A DNA stretch of 64,000 bases, from assembly GCF_014203355.1 (NCBI RefSeq), contig NZ_JACHIR010000001.1:1986038-2050037 (forward strand). The letters run 5' to 3'. The number at the start of each line of letters is the position of its first letter. Position 1 is the first letter of the stretch. The notes beneath the pieces were generated by a model, which had not been told where the DNA came from, made no database searches, and saw only the letters and a program-made list of their open reading frames with translations. The translations under genes were made by a program, and so were the position numbers. Source of the stretch: Kutzneria kofuensis (GTDB lineage Bacteria; Actinomycetota; Actinomycetes; Mycobacteriales; Pseudonocardiaceae). Positions 9,706 through 27,917 of this stretch are shown one piece after another.

Positions 9706-10581
9706 GAGGGTGTCTTACGTGGCGGCCTTGGCGAGCCTCTTGAAGCAAGTCAAGGCCGCCGCCAACGTCAGGAACGCGCAGAAGTGGTTCGCCTTGCGCT
9801 CGTACCGCATCGCGAGTCGGCGGTACCCGAACAACCAGGCGATCGTGCGTTCGATGACCCACCGGTGCCGACCCAGCCGCGCGCTGGACTCAGTGTCTTT
9901 GCGGGCGATCCGCACCGCGATCCCCTGCTCGCGTACCCACGCCCGTAACTCCTTGATGTCGTAGGCCTTGTCCGCGTGCAACTTCGCCGGCTTGCGCCGA
10001 CGGGGACCACGCCGCGACTTCACTGCGGGGATCGCCCGCACCAACGGTTTGAGCCCGTAGGCGTCGTTGGTGTTGGCCGCCGACACCGCCACCGACAACG
10101 GCAGACCGGCCCGGTCGGACAGCGCGTGGATCTTCGAGCCCGGCTTGCCTCGATCGACCGGGCTCGGACCGGTCAACGATCCCCCTTTTTCGCCCGCACC
10201 GCCGCCGCGTCCACCACCACCCGCGACCAATCGATCAAGCCCTGGCCGCCCAACTCGTCCAAGACCGCCCGATGCACCCGTGGCCACAGGCCCGCTTTGG
10301 TCCACTCGGTGAACCTGCGGTGCGCGGTCGGCACTGTGACCCCGAACGACGGCGGTAGATGCCGCCAGGCGCAGCCGCTGGTCAACACGAACACGATCGC
10401 GGTGAACACCGCCCGGTCGTCCACCGGCGTCGTCCCACCGCCCTGCCGACGCGGCGTGAACTGTGGGACCAACGGCGCGACCAGTGCCCACAACTCGTCG
10501 GGCACCAGCCGCTGCGACAACGCATCCGTCACAACGTCTGATCATGGCAGCGGCCGAGCAAGATCCACGTGAGACGAGCTC
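9706..10581 (-). mobile_element. IS5-family (IS427-like) insertion sequence, 876 bp
   Basis: The terminal inverted repeats can be read directly: GAGGGTGTCTTACGTGG at the left and, on the complementary strand, GAGCTCGTCTCACGTGG at the right. A 3-bp TAA duplication flanks it (9703-9705 and 10582-10584). The transposase is in two overlapping phases. It lies precisely at the left junction of an IS701 element, so it arrived after that one. Confidence 0.85.
9715..10532 (-). CDS. IS5-family DDE transposase, two frames joined by -1 frameshift
   Basis: The upstream frame (10173-10532, 119 aa) has the DUF4096-type N-terminus, LVPDELWALVAPLVPQF and GCAWRHLPPSFG, ending DAAAVRAKKGDR. The catalytic half continues in the -1 frame: GSKIHALSDRAGLPL, LHADKAYD and RHRWVIERTIAWL, which carries the DDE glutamate. 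The switch lies on an A-A-A-A-A-G-G-G-G-G run at about 10180, the usual slippery site of IS427-group elements. All catalytic blocks are present, so the element may be active. Confidence 0.85.
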
Positions 10582-10584
10582 TAA

Positions 10585-11953
10585 TACGACAACGACAGGT
10601 TGTAATCTAGGTCCGGACTCTGGTAGTTGATCTTGTTGTGTTGGCGGAGATGGTGGCGGACTGGTCGGCGAGCTTCGAGGCGTTTCTGGGCCGGTTCGCC
10701 GGCAGGTTCCCCCGAGTGGAGTCGCGGCGCCGGATGCGCTGGTATGTCAAGGGATTGCTCGCCGAGATCGAGCGGAAGAACGGGTGGACGCTGGCCGAGG
10801 CCGCCGGGGATGCGGGGCCGGAAGGCATGCAGCGGTTGCTGAACTTCTACGCGTGGGACACCGATGGCTTGCGTGACGACGTGCGTGCCGCGGTTGTGGA
10901 ACGCATCGGTGACGGTGAGCAGGGGGTGCTCATCGTCGACGAGACCGGCTTTCTGAAGAAGGGTGCCCACTCCGCAGGAGTCGCACGGCAGTACTCGGGC
11001 ACTGCCGGCCGGATCGAGAACTCGCAGATCGGGGTATTTCTGGCGTATGCCTCACCACGCGGTCGTGCGCTGATTGATCGGGAGTTGTATCTGCCCAAGG
11101 ACTGGACCGATGATCGTGACCGGTGCCGGGCGGCTGGCATTGATGACGAGGTGGAGTTCGCGACCAAACAGGTGCTGGCCCGCCGGATGATCGAGCGTGC
11201 GCTCGCGACGGAGGTGCCGTTCGGATGGGTGACCGCCGACGAGTTGTACGGGCAGGACACGAAGTTCCGGCTGTGGTTGGAGACCGTGGACGTCCCGCAT
11301 GTGGTGGCGGTGCCCAAGTCGGCGATGGTGGTGTCGATGCACTTGGCCAAGGTCCGGGTTGCGCGGATGATTGCGGACGTCGCGGACGCAGATTGGCAGC
11401 GGCTCAGCTGCGGGGACGGAGTTCGTGGCCCTCGGGTGTCGGACTGGACGGCGGTGGAGATCCGGCCGTTGCGCCGGCGGGGTTGGGGGCACTGGCTGCT
11501 GGCTCGGCGTTCGGTCAGCGATCCGACCGACATCGCCTACTACGTGTGTTTCGGGCCTGCCGATACCAGCTTGGCGGAGCTGGTTCGTGTCGCGGGCAGC
11601 CGCTGGGCGATCGAGGAGTGTTTCCAGACGGCGAAGAACGAGACCGGTCTGGATCACTACCAGGCGCGGGGTTACCAGGCGTGGTACCGGCACGTCACGC
11701 TGTCGATGACGGCGTTGGCGTTCCTGGTGATCACACGGCCAACCGTTGAAAAGGGGGCTCCGTTGCTGGCGATGGTCAGACCGTGATCCCGTTGTCGGTC
11801 AACGAGGTTCGCCGGTTATGGAACCGGGTCGTGGTCCGTTCCGCCCACACCGTCGATCACATCCTGCACTGGTCACGGTGGCGGTTGGTTAGCCAGGCCC
11901 GTGCCCGAGCTAGCCACCACCGGAGACAACATCACGACCTGTCGTTGTCGTAC
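10585..11953 (+). mobile_element. IS701-family insertion sequence, copy 1
   Basis: The termini begin TACGACAACGACA on both ends in inverted orientation. The flanking CTAA duplication is at 9702-9705 (displaced by the later IS5 insertion; the IS5 end also recreates CTAA at 10581-10584) and 11954-11957. CTAR is the usual IS701 target. The right terminus has one extra base relative to the left, suggesting a small mutation in the 3' end of the transposase gene. Confidence 0.85.
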
Positions 11954-11980
11954 TAAGCGAATGGGAAGCTGAACGATAAA
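10638..11980 (+). CDS. IS701-family transposase, probably read with -1 frameshift
   Basis: The zero-frame product (to 11786) contains the DDE blocks of the family: VLIVDETGFLKKG, RQYSGTAGRIENSQIGVFLAYAS, VTADELYG and RVAGSRWAIEECFQTAKNETGLDHYQ. It stops after VEKGAPLLAMVRP. The conserved C-terminal tail, VIPLSVNEVRRLWNRVVV and ILHWSRWRLVSQARARA, continues in the -1 frame from an A-AAG-GGG-G motif at 11748-11756. Copy 2 in this window has the same arrangement. The -1 frame passes the element end and stops at 11978-11980, which suggests an extra base near 11940 in this copy. Confidence 0.75.
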
Positions 11981-12174
11981 AATGAAGGGGATCGTCGATC
12001 CGCCCCGCCGTCACCCGGCTTGGCCTATCCGCCGACAAGAGCGCCGAGATCATCAGCAGCGGGCATTGAACCCTACAGACGGTCCGTCCTCCGCAGACAC
12101 TCAACTGCCTCGACACCAACACCCAGCACCACCGGCATAGTGATCAACTTCTCCACATCCCGTAGGCTGCCAGA

Positions 12175-12747
12175 GTGACGGAGTACCCGGAGGCACTGAA
12201 GTGGAAGGTCCATGGCGAGCGGACCGTTTACGACAACCGGTGGATCAAGGTCAACCTAGTTGATGTGGAGCCGCCCGACGGCAGTCGGTTCGAGCATCAC
12301 GTGGTCCGGCTGGACCACGTCGCGATAGCTCTGCTCGTCAATGAGAACGAAGAGGTGCTGACGCTGTGGCGGTACCGTTTCGCTGTCGACCAGTGGGGCT
12401 ATGAGCTGATTGGCGGGCTGGTCGAAGAAGGCGAAGAACCTGCCGCGACGGCCGCGCGTGAAGCTGAGGAGGAGACCGGCTGGCGTCCAATCGGCGAGCC
12501 TGAACACATTGTGAAGTTTCAGCCGCTGCCGGGCATGATTGATTCGCCGGTTGACGTCTTCATGTGGCGGCAGGCCGAGAAGGTCGGCGAGCCTACCGAT
12601 GCCGAGGAAGCCGCGCGGATCGAGTGGATTCCGGTAGACCGGGTGTTGGACCTTGTTCGGAACGGTGAGGTCCTTGGGTCTGGCGCGGTAATTCCACTCC
12701 TCTACTACCTAGCATCACGCAATAGTGGTGCCGCTGGCGCCCGGTAG
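12175..12747 (+). CDS. Nudix hydrolase (ADP-ribose pyrophosphatase-like)
   Basis: The 190-residue frame with a GTG start has a full Nudix box at about residues 82-104: GG...EEGEEPAATAAREAEEETGW. The preceding VLTLWRYRFAVDQWGYELIGG region is typical of the ADP-sugar pyrophosphatase branch. Such enzymes cleave nucleoside diphosphate-X compounds. Nudix genes are recurrent regulators or cargo of AICEs and element 2 in this window carries another. Its 3' end overlaps the convergent regulator gene by 33 nt, so convergent transcription may matter. Confidence 0.85.
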   Translation: MTEYPEALKWKVHGERTVYDNRWIKVNLVDVEPPDGSRFEHHVVRLDHVAIALLVNENEEVLTLWRYRFAVDQWGYELIGGLVEEGEEPAATAAREAEEETGWRPIGEPEHIVKFQPLPGMIDSPVDVFMWRQAEKVGEPTDAEEAARIEWIPVDRVLDLVRNGEVLGSGAVIPLLYYLASRNSGAAGAR

Positions 12748-24471: not shown

Positions 24472-24561
24472 AACCGATTTCCCACGGAAATCTGACAACG
24501 GTAGACCAAATCATTCGGGCATGTGGCTGCTGCACTCTTCCCACGCCTATGCGGCAGCTAG

Positions 24562-25987
24562 TACTACAGCCGCAGGCTGTGATGTTTGCGGTGTTGCCGC
24601 TGGTAGTGGCATCGCCGGGCGTGGGTCTGATGAAGTCGCCGCCAGTCCGACCATCGATCAGTGTGCGCTCGGGGGTGCGTCGGTCGCGTCAGGATGGCCC
24701 ACAAACGTCTGATCTCGTTGCACGACAACGGGATCAAACACTCGTGGCCGGCTGTGACGCCCCCTTTGCGTCGCGGTCGCGTTCAGCGGACGCGGTCACG
24801 GCCAGGAACGCGGCGGCCAGCATCGACAGCGTGACATGTCGGTACCACGCCTGATACTTGCGGACCTGGTAGTGGTCCAAGCCGGTCTCGTTCTTGGCGA
24901 ACTGGAAGGTTTCCTCGACACCCCAACGACTGCCGGCGACCCGGACAAGTTCTGCCAACGGCACGGGACGGCGGGTGTGGCAGATGTAGTACGCCAACTC
25001 GTCCGGCTTGCTGATCGACCGGCGCACCACGAGAAGGTGCTCGTCCGCGCCCGGGTCCAGCAGCAGCCAGTCATACAGCCGGCGCCCCTTGCTGCCCTCA
25101 CCGGCCGACAGGCGTTGCCAGCCCTTGCGCGGTGCGCTGCGAGCCAACGCATCCGCCCGCACAGCGCCTTTCGGGGTGGTGAAGCGCTGATCGCAGGAAA
25201 CGGCCATGACGTAGTCGATGTCGTTGTCTTCTAGCCAGGTTCGCAGGCCGGGATTGTCGCCGTATGCCTCGTCCGCGGTGAACCAGTCGATGTCCCTTCC
25301 CGCCTCCAGCAGGCGAGCCAGCATGTGTTGGGCCAGCACGGGCTTGGTCGCGAACTCCACATCCTCGTCGATCCCGGCCTCCGCGCAGCGCTCGCGGTCG
25401 TCGGTCCAGGACGCGGGCAGGTAGAGCTCGCGGTCGATCAACGCCCGCCCCCGGGCCGACACGTAGGTCAAGAACACGCCGAGTTGGCAGTTCTCGATCC
25501 GACCGGCGGTGCCGGAGTACTGCCGTTGGACACCGGCGGATTTGGTGCCTTTCTTGAGGAATCCGGTCTCGTCGGCGACCACGACCCCGGTGGGATCAGT
25601 GATCTGGTCCAGCACGTAGTCCCGCAGGTCGTCTCGGACCGCGTCGGCGTCCCAGCGGTAGAAGTTCAGCAGGCGCTGCATGCCGTCAGGGGCCAGGTCA
25701 CCGGCCTGCTCGGCGATCGTCCAGGAGTTCTTGCGCTCGGCGCCCGACAGCAAGCCCAGCAGGTACATCCTGGCCCGGTGGCGTGAGTCTGCCTGTGCGA
25801 ACCGGCCTGCGACCAGCGCGAACATGTCCTCGAACCCTGCCCGCCACCGCGCCAGGCGATCGTCCGCGTTCGTCTCCGGTAGGGCCGTGAGGTCCTGCTC
25901 CATGTCCGGCACACCCAAGTCGATCACGCATCGGCGGTCTCCGTGAACACGACACGCCGACAAGTATCACACCGTGCGGCTGTAGTA
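24562..25987 (-). mobile_element. IS701-family insertion sequence, copy 2
   Basis: The ends begin TACTACAGCCGCA in inverted orientation and a CTAG duplication flanks the element (24558-24561 and 25988-25991), giving 1,426 bp. It differs clearly from copy 1 in sequence, so the two are relatives rather than recent duplicates. It sits in the last codons of the YhgE/Pip-type gene. Confidence 0.88.
24564..25903 (-). CDS. IS701-family transposase, probably read with -1 frameshift
   Basis: From the ATG at 25903 the zero frame encodes VVADETGFLKKGTKSAG, RQYSGTAGRIENCQLGVFLTY, FTADEAYGDN and RVAGSRWGVEETFQFAKNETG, and stops at 24734. The C-terminal tail of the family, LIPLSCNEIRRLWAILTRP to the terminal TAG at 24564-24566, is in the -1 frame. 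It can be joined on A-AAG-GGG-G near 24765, exactly where copy 1 has the same heptamer. Arithmetic of the two frames is consistent with a single -1 slip. A longer in-frame start at 25963 is possible. Confidence 0.8.
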
Positions 25988-27917
25988 CTAGCCGCAGCCG
26001 CCGGGTGGACAGGTAACGACGCCGGTCCGTGACGAGAATCGCCGCCAGCACACCGACAATCAGCCACGCGGCGAGCTCGGCGATCCCGCTGTACAGCCCG
26101 GCATCGCCGGTCACCGCGGCACGAAGGCCGAGCACGGCGCCGTGCGTGGGCAGGTCGTCAGCCAGGGCGTAGAGCGGGCTCGGCAGCGTGGACACGATCC
26201 CGGTCGCCGAGGCAAGCACCAGCACGGCAAGGGAAGCGAGCCGTCCGGCGCGGCCGAAGATCGCCGTGACGGCCTGGTTGAGCGACACGAACGCGAACGC
26301 CGCCAGCAAGGCGACGCCGAGGAACTCGAACGCACCGCCGACACCGAGATGAAGCGCCGGAATGGCGATCGCGGTGATCGCGATCGCCGCCAGGGCGGCG
26401 GCTGTGGCGCCGGGTAGGGCTGCGCGGATGATGATTCGCCAGGTCGGCTCGCGCGCCGTCAACACGGCATCGGGGACGGCCCGTGTGACGAGGTAGGTGG
26501 CCAATGCCAACGCCCACAACGCAAGGACCGCGAACAGCGTGATGGCGAGCGTCCCCGATGGCGTGCTGTCCGAGGCGGTTGACGTCGGACTGGCGGCGAT
26601 TGTCTTGAGGTGATTGCGTTCCGCGTCGGTGTAGCTGGGAACCTGGTTGCGCCCCTTGTCCAGCGAAGACGCCAACTGCTGCGCGCCGTCATTCACCTTG
26701 CCGGTCCCGGCGCTCAGCTGCCGCGAGCCGTCGGCCAGCTGCTGCGCGCCGGAATTCGCCTGCCGCACACCGCTGTCCAGCTGCCGCGCGCCATCGGCGG
26801 CTGAGGCGATTCCCTGGGCAAGGAGACCGGATTGCTTGGCCAGCTGGGCGTTTCCGTTGGCGACCTGCCTGGCCCCGTTGGCCAGCGCCTGGATGCCGTC
26901 ACGGACCTGCACGGCCTCGGCCCGCATGGCGGCCTTGGCCCCGTCGATCTTGTCGGCGTCCGCGGTCAGCCGCGCTGCCGCCTGCCGGAGGTTGCCGCAG
27001 AACTGCGCGTCACCGCTGCACTGGTCGGCCAGCCGCTGGATGTCGGCGGCCGCGGCGGTGGCGGACGGCAGGGCGTCGATGGCGGCGATGATCCGGTCGG
27101 CCAGCGGGACGATCGTGCCGGCGAGCTTTTCGTTGCCCTGCGCGACTTGCTCCGCCCCGGCGGCGAGTTGTTTGGTCAGGGCGGGCAGCTGCGCGGTGTC
27201 CCGCTCGGCCTGGCTGAGGCCGCTGGAAAGCTGGGCCGAGCCGGCAGCCAGTTGCGACGTGCCCGCCGCGAGCCTGGCGGCGCCGTCGGCGAGCTGTTGC
27301 GCGCCGGGCACGAGCTGGCGCGTGCCGTCGGCCAGTTGGCCGGCGCCGTCGGCGGCCTGGTTGATCTGGCCGTGAATGGTGGTGAAGCCGACGTAGATGT
27401 TGGCCAGGTAGGTCTCGACGACCTGGTTGTTCAACGTGTGCTGGGTGCTGTCGGCGATCCGTTGCGACAGCGAGGGATCCATGACGCCGGTGCTCGCGGA
27501 CGTCTTGACGTCGACCACGGCCCGAGAAGCGTCGAGCGGCTTGCCGGCCGCGGCGGAGGTCGCGCGGGTAGAGAAGTCCTTCGGGATGGTCACGACGGCC
27601 GCGTAGGTTCCGTTGCCCAGCCCCGAATTCGCATCGGACGCGTCGGTGAGCACCCACTTGTAGGCCGAACTGGCGCTGTGCGTGAGGTCGCCGGCAAGTT
27701 CGCGGCCGAGCGGGATGAGCTGCCCGTTCACGGTGACCGGCTCGTCGTTGTTGACCACGGCCGCGGTCGCGGTGCCGTGGTCGCTGTCCGGCGACCACAG
27801 CGCCCACGTGAGCAGGCCCATGATCAGCACCGGCACCGCGATGAGGCCTGTCCAGGTCTTCCAGGTAAGCGGGCCGGCGGCCAGCGCCCGGGCGGAGTTG
27901 GCGAACGGCTTGAACAT
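25988..27917 (-). CDS. YhgE/Pip-family membrane protein, 3' end disrupted by IS701
   Basis: The protein has an N-terminal helix (WTGLIAVPVLIMGLLTWALW), a long extracytoplasmic region made of repeated heptad-like units (QLADG, QLAAG, ARQLDSG) around residues 190-430, and about five C-terminal helices. This is the YhgE/Pip plan, an ABC-2-like membrane family often paired with MMPL transporters, as here. The IS701 insertion falls at codon 643. Without it the gene would end RLRLAAA-stop, so only the last residues are replaced, and the frame now runs on into the element to 25698 (739 aa). It overlaps the MMPL stop by one base. Confidence 0.8.

Follow-up and report, generated by a model that had tools for sequence, protein, structure and literature searches.

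The window, a 64,000-nucleotide stretch of the Kutzneria kofuensis genome, contains two complete IS701-family insertion sequences, referred to here as copy 1 and copy 2, together with an IS5-family element that adjoins copy 1 (Table 1). The cores of copies 1 and 2 are 56% identical, and both match PF13546 (DDE_5; E 2.8e-51 for copy 1 and 2.9e-50 for copy 2). The two copies also met the test for membership in the IS701 family, scoring 450 and 434 bits against the NF033540 model (transpos_IS701; cut-off 150 bits), with an E-value of 6.9e-135 for copy 1. The R-(3)-E-(6)-K signature of copy 1 is RWAIEECFQTAK, which satisfies the IS701 criterion without a tyrosine at the Y position; this Tyr of the YREK signature is kept in 4 of 27 IS701 members (PMC2266710, available in part). 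NF033540 has 363 positions, and its match to copy 1 stops at residue 366, a few residues short of the slip site. The C-terminal part of the protein falls outside this curated model, whose end just precedes the shift point.

In copy 1, the final residues of the zero frame are ..VEKGAPLLAMVRP (also given as ..TVEKGAPLLAMVRP), followed by a TGA at 11784-11786, and the frame -1 product runs as KGGSVAGDGQTVIPLSVNEVRRLW..LSLSY up to a TAA at 11954-11956. In copy 2, the zero frame finishes with ..DAKGASQPATSV and a stop, and frame -1 goes on as KGGVTAGHECLIPLSCNEIRRLW... The zero-frame codons at the slip site read GAA AAG GGG GCT in copy 1 and GCA AAG GGG GCG in copy 2 (24767-24761, minus strand). 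Re-reading of the sequence thus agreed with the original prediction that both copies end early in the zero frame and have their conserved tail encoded in frame -1, and the codons of each copy confirmed an in-phase A_AAG_GGG at the tail start. Because frame -1 of copy 1 is closed by a TGA immediately 5' of the heptamer, a shift in this copy is confined to 11750-11783. The bare heptamer is not rare, as AAAGGGG occurs 4 times in the window versus 3.2 expected; its evidential weight is in its phase, its position and its conservation in relatives, not in rarity. An Rfam scan of positions 10400-12200 returned zero matches.

Table 1. Features of the window, with positions counted from its first nucleotide.
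Feature	Position	Strand	Details or basis
Copy 1, complete IS701-family element	10585..11952	+	1368 bp; ends TACGACAACGACAGGT / ACCTGTCGTTGTCGTA; locus L003
CTAA target duplications of copy 1	10581-10584, 11953-11956	+	sequence
Zero-frame ORF of copy 1	10638..11786	+	382 codons from GTG (putative start); DDE catalytic core without C-terminal part
Slippery heptamer A_AAG_GGG of copy 1	11750..11756	+	in phase with zero frame
Frame -1 tail of copy 1	11750..11956	+	68 codons and TAA; similar tails and tail selection in relatives
Copy 2, complete IS701-family element	24562..25987	-	1426 bp; ends TACTACAGCCGCA / TGCGGCTGTAGTA; locus L015
CTAG target duplications of copy 2	25988-25991, 24558-24561	-	sequence
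Zero-frame ORF of copy 2	24734..25963	-	409 codons from TTG (putative start)
Slippery heptamer A_AAG_GGG of copy 2	24761..24767	-	sequence
Frame -1 tail of copy 2	24564..24767	-	67 codons and TAG
Predicted strong hairpin 3' of the copy 2 slip site	24682..24764	-	z -3.5; 90 nt from slip +3; measured on copy L021
IS5-family element adjoining copy 1	9715-10545	-	NF033580, 133 bits, cut-off 110

The genome (10.4 Mb, 5 contigs) contains nine copies of the copy 1 element (type 1), nine of the copy 2 element (type 2) and three of a type 3 element that is 59% identical to copy 1. The tail lies in frame -1 in all 21 copies of the three types. A_AAG_GGG is present in 18 of the 18 type 1 and type 2 copies, and of the three type 3 copies, two read A_AAA_GGG and one reads C_AAA_GGG at the slip site. 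Every type 1 and type 2 copy has both of its ends (1368 and 1426 bp apart) and is flanked by matching 4-bp duplications, which meets the 4-bp criterion for IS701, and these duplications follow YTAR with the single exception of GTAG. Since all 18 of these copies keep their ends and duplications, and all 21 tails are in frame -1, the split elements have been moving, and they are read as recently mobile. No fused copy of types 1-3, i.e. with its tail in the zero frame, was present among 30 matches in this genome. At one place (G000:C1:5383918-5387738, L009-L011), type 3, type 1 and type 3 elements adjoin one another in a single cluster.

Tail frame and slip site in relatives

At least 304 loci, which constitute a sample, were collected through protein and family searches, and the three frames behind each core were scanned with a tail profile built from 50 clear -1 tails. 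The 261 unique matches comprised 158 with the tail in frame -1, 41 in frame 0, 8 in frame +1 and 54 without a recognisable tail. At 90% identity there were 138 clusters with a recognisable tail: 97 split (-1), 35 fused (0) and 6 with a +1 tail. These cluster counts are limited to matches of at least 200 aa (7 of the 207 labelled matches were shorter), and three mixed clusters were assigned by majority. It is possible that a profile made from -1 tails favours such tails; fused tails were nonetheless found by it. One clade of 109 clusters (SH-aLRT 96) held 96 of the 97 split clusters, along with 8 fused and 5 +1 clusters, and 7 of these 8 fused clusters are mutually related. The stop-to-stop frames of fused relatives span 439-518 codons in 30 of 41 cases (an upper bound), lengths that fit the size calculated for the copy 1 product in frame -1 (approximately 439 residues).

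The pN/pS ratio of the tail in frame -1 was 0.40, versus 0.25 for the core (pooled over 21 close pairs). Among 14 independent pairs, two tails gave values of 0.80 and 1.09, each on very few changes. By these substitution patterns, the tails of the relatives are under selection.

The overlap in the 97 split clusters contained A_AAG_GGG in 33, A_AAA_GGG in 27, C_CCA_AAA in 13, G_GGA_AAA in 3 and A_AAA_AAC in 1, with a mixed motif or none in 20. Thus, different perfect heptamers (A_AAG_GGG, C_CCA_AAA, G_GGA_AAA and A_AAA_AAC) share the same region and phase. An in-phase X_XXY_YYZ or A_AAA_GGG no more than 72 nt before the tail was found in 79 of 97 split clusters and in none of 35 fused clusters (Fisher P 6e-19; the clusters are related and hence not fully independent); the listed motifs were absent from this 72-nt interval in the remaining 18 split clusters. 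Codon use was also specific to the site. A_AAR_GGG occurs in 58 of the 63 clusters with Lys-Gly at the shift site and at 1 of 213 KG pairs elsewhere in the same genes. At the site, 61 of the 63 have GGG for Gly, 58 have A as the preceding base and 55 have G as the following one; the Gly of the core Lys-Lys-Gly motif in these genes is GGG in 13 of 91, and CCA-AAA was found at 0 of 70 other PK pairs. Counted by phase, AAAGGGG was seen 34 and 28 times where it encodes Lys-Gly (two phases) and 5 times in the remaining phase. The slip-site runs are A3-A7 adjoining G4-G7, the shortest being A3G5 or C3A4.

The prediction would have been refuted if most relatives had carried the tail in the zero frame with the heptamer unconserved. 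This did not occur, as the tail is in frame -1 in 97 of 138 clusters and the slip site is conserved in the split ones. A_AAG_GGG, the heptamer originally noted in both window copies, is conserved, but the motif proved broader and is better written as A_AAR_GGG or C_CCA_AAA. Three criteria for programmed -1 ribosomal frameshifting, namely an overlapping -1 ORF, an in-phase slip motif, and conservation of motif and direction in relatives, are met, with the qualification that 18 of the 97 clusters lack a motif and that +1 lineages exist.

Split elements outside the actinobacteria

A wider sample that included plasmids and viral contigs (L305-L339) gave 36 matches, 20 with the tail in frame -1, 9 in +1, 4 in 0 and 3 without a tail; this sample holds repeats of the same element (L310 with L330 and L331, and L311 with L316). 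Frame -1 tails were found in Leptolyngbya (GAA AAA GGG GGG) and Deinococcus (CAT AAA AAG GGG) and, among proteobacteria, in Sinorhizobium (ISRm31), Rhizobium, Paracoccus (CCC CCA AAA), Bradyrhizobium, Acetobacter (IS1452), Gluconobacter, Shinella, Indioceanicola and Aromatoleum. No listed slip motif is visible in the codons of L308 (Indioceanicola), L320 (Shinella) and L322 (a Rhizobium). The split occurs in five named phyla, with many proteobacterial members; cyanobacteria, Deinococcus and Chloroflexota are represented by single members, that of Chloroflexota being one metagenome bin (L108).

A +1 tail follows a conserved ATC GGG GGG (G6) in Methylorubrum (ISMdi28), two Microvirga and two Azospirillum, and L306, L307, L321, L336 and L337 constitute this alphaproteobacterial +1 lineage. 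A +1 tail after AAA AAA AAC (A8) was found in Caballeronia, Mycetohabitans and two viral contigs; these A8 members, from Burkholderiaceae and the two viral contigs, are L326, L327, L335 and L339. The check suggested with the original prediction was an alignment of actinobacterial IS701 genes. The split is indeed present in actinobacteria but is not restricted to them, since other phyla have split members and some proteobacteria use +1. The four zero-frame matches of the wider sample were three fused elements on viral contigs and one Zymomonas copy with an intervening stop. In this last copy (L319, on a plasmid), a long A run and a zero-frame stop precede a frame 0 tail, which may reflect decay or another form of recoding.

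In a 66-row tree, for which thinning left 39 of the 138 clusters and from which L316, L331, L319 and the second match of L311 were excluded as duplicate or too short, 14 fused rows formed one clade (UFBoot 100, SH-aLRT 99), with a further fused row (L152) elsewhere. The simplest reading of these sequences is that the fused clade re-joined its frames and lost the slip site. Because the midpoint root falls on a long planctomycete branch, an ancestral split is likewise the simplest reading and is not proven. An earlier scheme based on the midpoint root, in which the split was born within actinobacteria from fused ancestors, was dropped after the wider sampling; the root is uncertain. Nevertheless, it seems probable that recoding between the core and the C-terminal part is ancestral to the whole IS701 family and has been kept in at least five phyla, with the type of recoding switched between lineages (-1 at A_AAR_GGG or C_CCA_AAA; +1 at G6 and A8). 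By the same reading, a Tn5-like C-terminal pairing domain is rationed apart from the catalytic core, and most members are truncated in public annotation.

Proposed mechanism and alternatives to it

We conclude, with a probability of roughly 0.78, that the window transposase genes are split by programmed recoding at the point where the catalytic core meets the C-terminal part, most likely by -1 ribosomal frameshifting; the frameshift itself is inferred. The programmed -1 frameshift originally predicted for IS701 elements is supported by the tail frames and by slip-site conservation in relatives, without a frameshift measurement. The finding is real and broader than first stated, being well supported by sequence comparison, without bench data.

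In the zero frame, which most ribosomes would follow, translation would stop eight or nine codons past the slip site, and the inferred protein of approximately 382 (copy 1) or 409 (copy 2) residues would contain the whole DDE core and no C-terminal part. A minority would slip one base back, with lysine tRNA on A_AAR and GGG next, and continue in frame -1 until the element ends, which by arithmetic would give a product of approximately 439 residues for copy 1. By analogy with Tn5, the added C-terminal part may serve dimerisation and the pairing of element ends. Slippage would thereby limit transposition, the full form being, again by inference, the active enzyme.

The naturally fused relative L154 was modelled with AlphaFold2 (mean pLDDT 76). 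The core is mostly confident and its last helix ends at 383, followed by residues 387-411 at pLDDT below 50 and a terminal helix at 414-441 of low confidence (block means 43-58). The top Foldseek match of this model was the Tn5 transposase (E 1.9e-10, TM 0.55, rmsd 8.4), and a sequence search of the PDB gave no relatives (E up to 1). Correspondence of the tail to the C-terminal domain of Tn5 is inferred from its position.

A_AAR and V_VVA_AAR motifs shift readily in E. coli and are common among IS1 and IS3 elements, and Sharma et al. found A_AAG to be the most shift-prone tetramer in E. coli and Y_YYA_AAR to be among the efficient heptamers, with A_AAA weaker (PMC4066793, available in part). 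According to the same partial source, tetramers lacking a stimulator show hardly any shifting in E. coli. The lack of a general stimulator in our set therefore counts against -1 ribosomal frameshifting, as does A_AAA_GGG, found in 27 of the 97 split clusters, at which only the Lys tRNA re-pairs perfectly. Further points against it are the 18 motif-less clusters, the three wider-sample members without a visible motif, the +1 lineages, and the likeness of the A/G runs to a known site of transcriptional slippage.

A downstream stimulatory hairpin, which the original prediction had proposed to look for, is not seen across the family. A strong one is predicted in the copy 2 type, for which the folding z downstream of the slip site stands out (-3.5), and the value for the copy 1 type is modest (-1.3). 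Across 78 sites, no family-wide hairpin was detected: the mean folding z was -0.42 (+3 to +93, dinucleotide shuffles, with pseudoknots outside the test) versus -0.26 in the upstream control, and 35 fused relatives gave a mean of -0.29. By this test, a downstream hairpin does not appear to be a general stimulator. RNAalifold returned 0 for both A-type sets and for their column-shuffled controls, and was thus without power there; on the C_CCA_AAA set it gave -2.0, versus -1.0 (sd 1.5) in controls. Shine-Dalgarno-like words were not enriched upstream of the slip site (13 of 78 sites versus 218 of 1560 control windows).

The main rival explanation is transcriptional slippage, in which RNA polymerase would add or drop a base within the A/G or C/A run, so that some members of the resulting mRNA pool encode the full protein in one frame. 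The runs at the slip sites are in keeping with it, as is the Roseiflexus IS630 element, which slips at a mixed run of similar size (template A5G5, RNA U5C4; PMC5009743, available in part). Antonov et al. read mixed directions within a family as a sign of such slippage (PMC3711429, likewise available in part), and the two +1 lineages have their tails at runs, G6 and A8; for these lineages the case is stronger still. However, in the first set, which is mainly actinobacterial, -1 is by far the prevailing direction (97 versus 6 clusters), the runs go down to A3G5 or C3A4, and the codon phase of the motif is kept (34 and 28 versus 5). In addition, C_CCA_AAA and G_GGA_AAA suit tRNA slippage, and a Roseiflexus-type hairpin has no general counterpart in IS701. 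We therefore regard polymerase slippage as unlikely for the family, yet as a possibility that has to be kept in view.

It might also be supposed that translation terminates and re-initiates, the tail being a separate small protein whose start codon coincides with the zero-frame stop or lies close to it. In copies 1 and 2 and in type 3, the zero-frame TGA does overlap GTG, TTG or ATG where the tail begins, and such a stop/start overlap exists at 24 of 78 sites; in frame -1, the interval from slip -60 to the tail start contains a start codon at 27 of 78 (12 of 34 A_AAG_GGG, 12 of 27 A_AAA_GGG and 3 of 3 G_GGA_AAA sites). The overlap, however, follows from the hydrophobic-Ile codons of the tail, the C_CCA_AAA group has no such start (0 of 13) and a zero-frame stop 34-46 nt beyond the tail start, and the slip motif is left unexplained. 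Re-initiation is thus very improbable. Even less credible is the view that the copies are dead through independent loss-of-function indels in a G-rich run and were mobilised by a transposase acting in trans. Homopolymer runs do mutate easily, and +1 copies such as L035, L050 and L078 look like single indels relative to their nearest relatives. This explanation is already disfavoured by the direction shared by 96 of the 109 clusters of one clade, by selection on the tails, and by the lack of a fused copy among the own-genome matches.

Comparison with known elements, annotation and the tail stop codon

Like the IS701 copies, IS1 and members of the IS3 family such as IS911 have an in-phase A_AAR or V_VVA_AAR motif, a second frame in -1 and a full-length transposase as the -1 product. 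In IS911 and IS1, the catalytic core comes from the shifted frame. In contrast, the zero-frame IS701 protein contains the complete core, and what the shift adds is a C-terminal part; moreover, no general stimulator was found for IS701. The closest solved fold to the model of the fused IS701 relative is that of the Tn5/IS50 transposase. In Tn5, two forms of one transposase regulate transposition, and the inhibitor lacks the N-terminus, whereas the IS701 short form lacks the C-terminus.

In the IS5-family element next to copy 1, the slip site at 10188-10182 (minus strand) reads GCG AAA AAG GGG GAT. Its in-phase A_AAG_GGG, the continuation of the protein in frame -1 and the match to the IS5 model bear out the claim that this element uses a similar A/G run. 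Some IS5 members may express their transposase through frameshifting (PMC7371123, available in part), and a +1 shift appears in a figure legend, apparently for IS1237 (PMC2516522, also available in part). IS5 members with a frameshift have a purine-run slip site as in IS701, but both the family and the position of the split differ. The Roseiflexus IS630 element similarly has a split transposase that is restored at a mixed run of similar length, but there it is by polymerase slippage with an RNA hairpin (PMC5009743, in its available part), whereas in IS701 the codon phase of the motif is preserved and no hairpin common to the family was detected.

The IS701 family as described in 2008 has the same transposase family and 4-bp duplications as the window elements; in the available part of that report, absence of a frameshift is a hallmark of IS4 and none is reported for IS701 (PMC2266710). 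We found no description of recoding in IS701 in the open-licence literature, including PMC2266710, PMC8944449, PMC9569102 and PMC7371123, so far as their text was available. In plasmid records, 23 of 23 annotated IS701 CDSs end at the zero-frame stop, although the gene table used for this comparison never marks joins. Beyond that stop, 20 of the 23 have a tail, in frame -1 in 15 and +1 in 5; it was unrecognised in 3. It appears that the annotations examined miss a control step, the full-length enzyme apparently being made only when the frame slips at one fixed spot. If this is true, recoding controls IS701 transposases as it does those of other insertion sequences; in the IS701 layout, the unshifted protein comprises the complete catalytic core, to which the shift supplies a terminal part. 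The -1, +1 and fused forms at one position in one family would also provide a natural series on the gain, switch and loss of recoding.

The tail stop codon of copy 1 sits within the target duplication. At window positions 11951-11956, it is formed from the YTAR duplication (TA followed by YTAR), so that the last residue varies with the insertion site; in copy L005, with the GTAG duplication, the tail is one residue shorter. In a rough end search across the 97 split clusters, the tail stop fell inside the element in 39 clusters, within the duplication in 19 and just past the called end in 17; 21 gave no ends and 1 ran off. Several of the 17 stops just past the end resemble register errors, and GTAC duplications in this search look like CTAG misregistered by 3 bases. 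Some elements borrow their stop codon from the target site, a further point open to testing.
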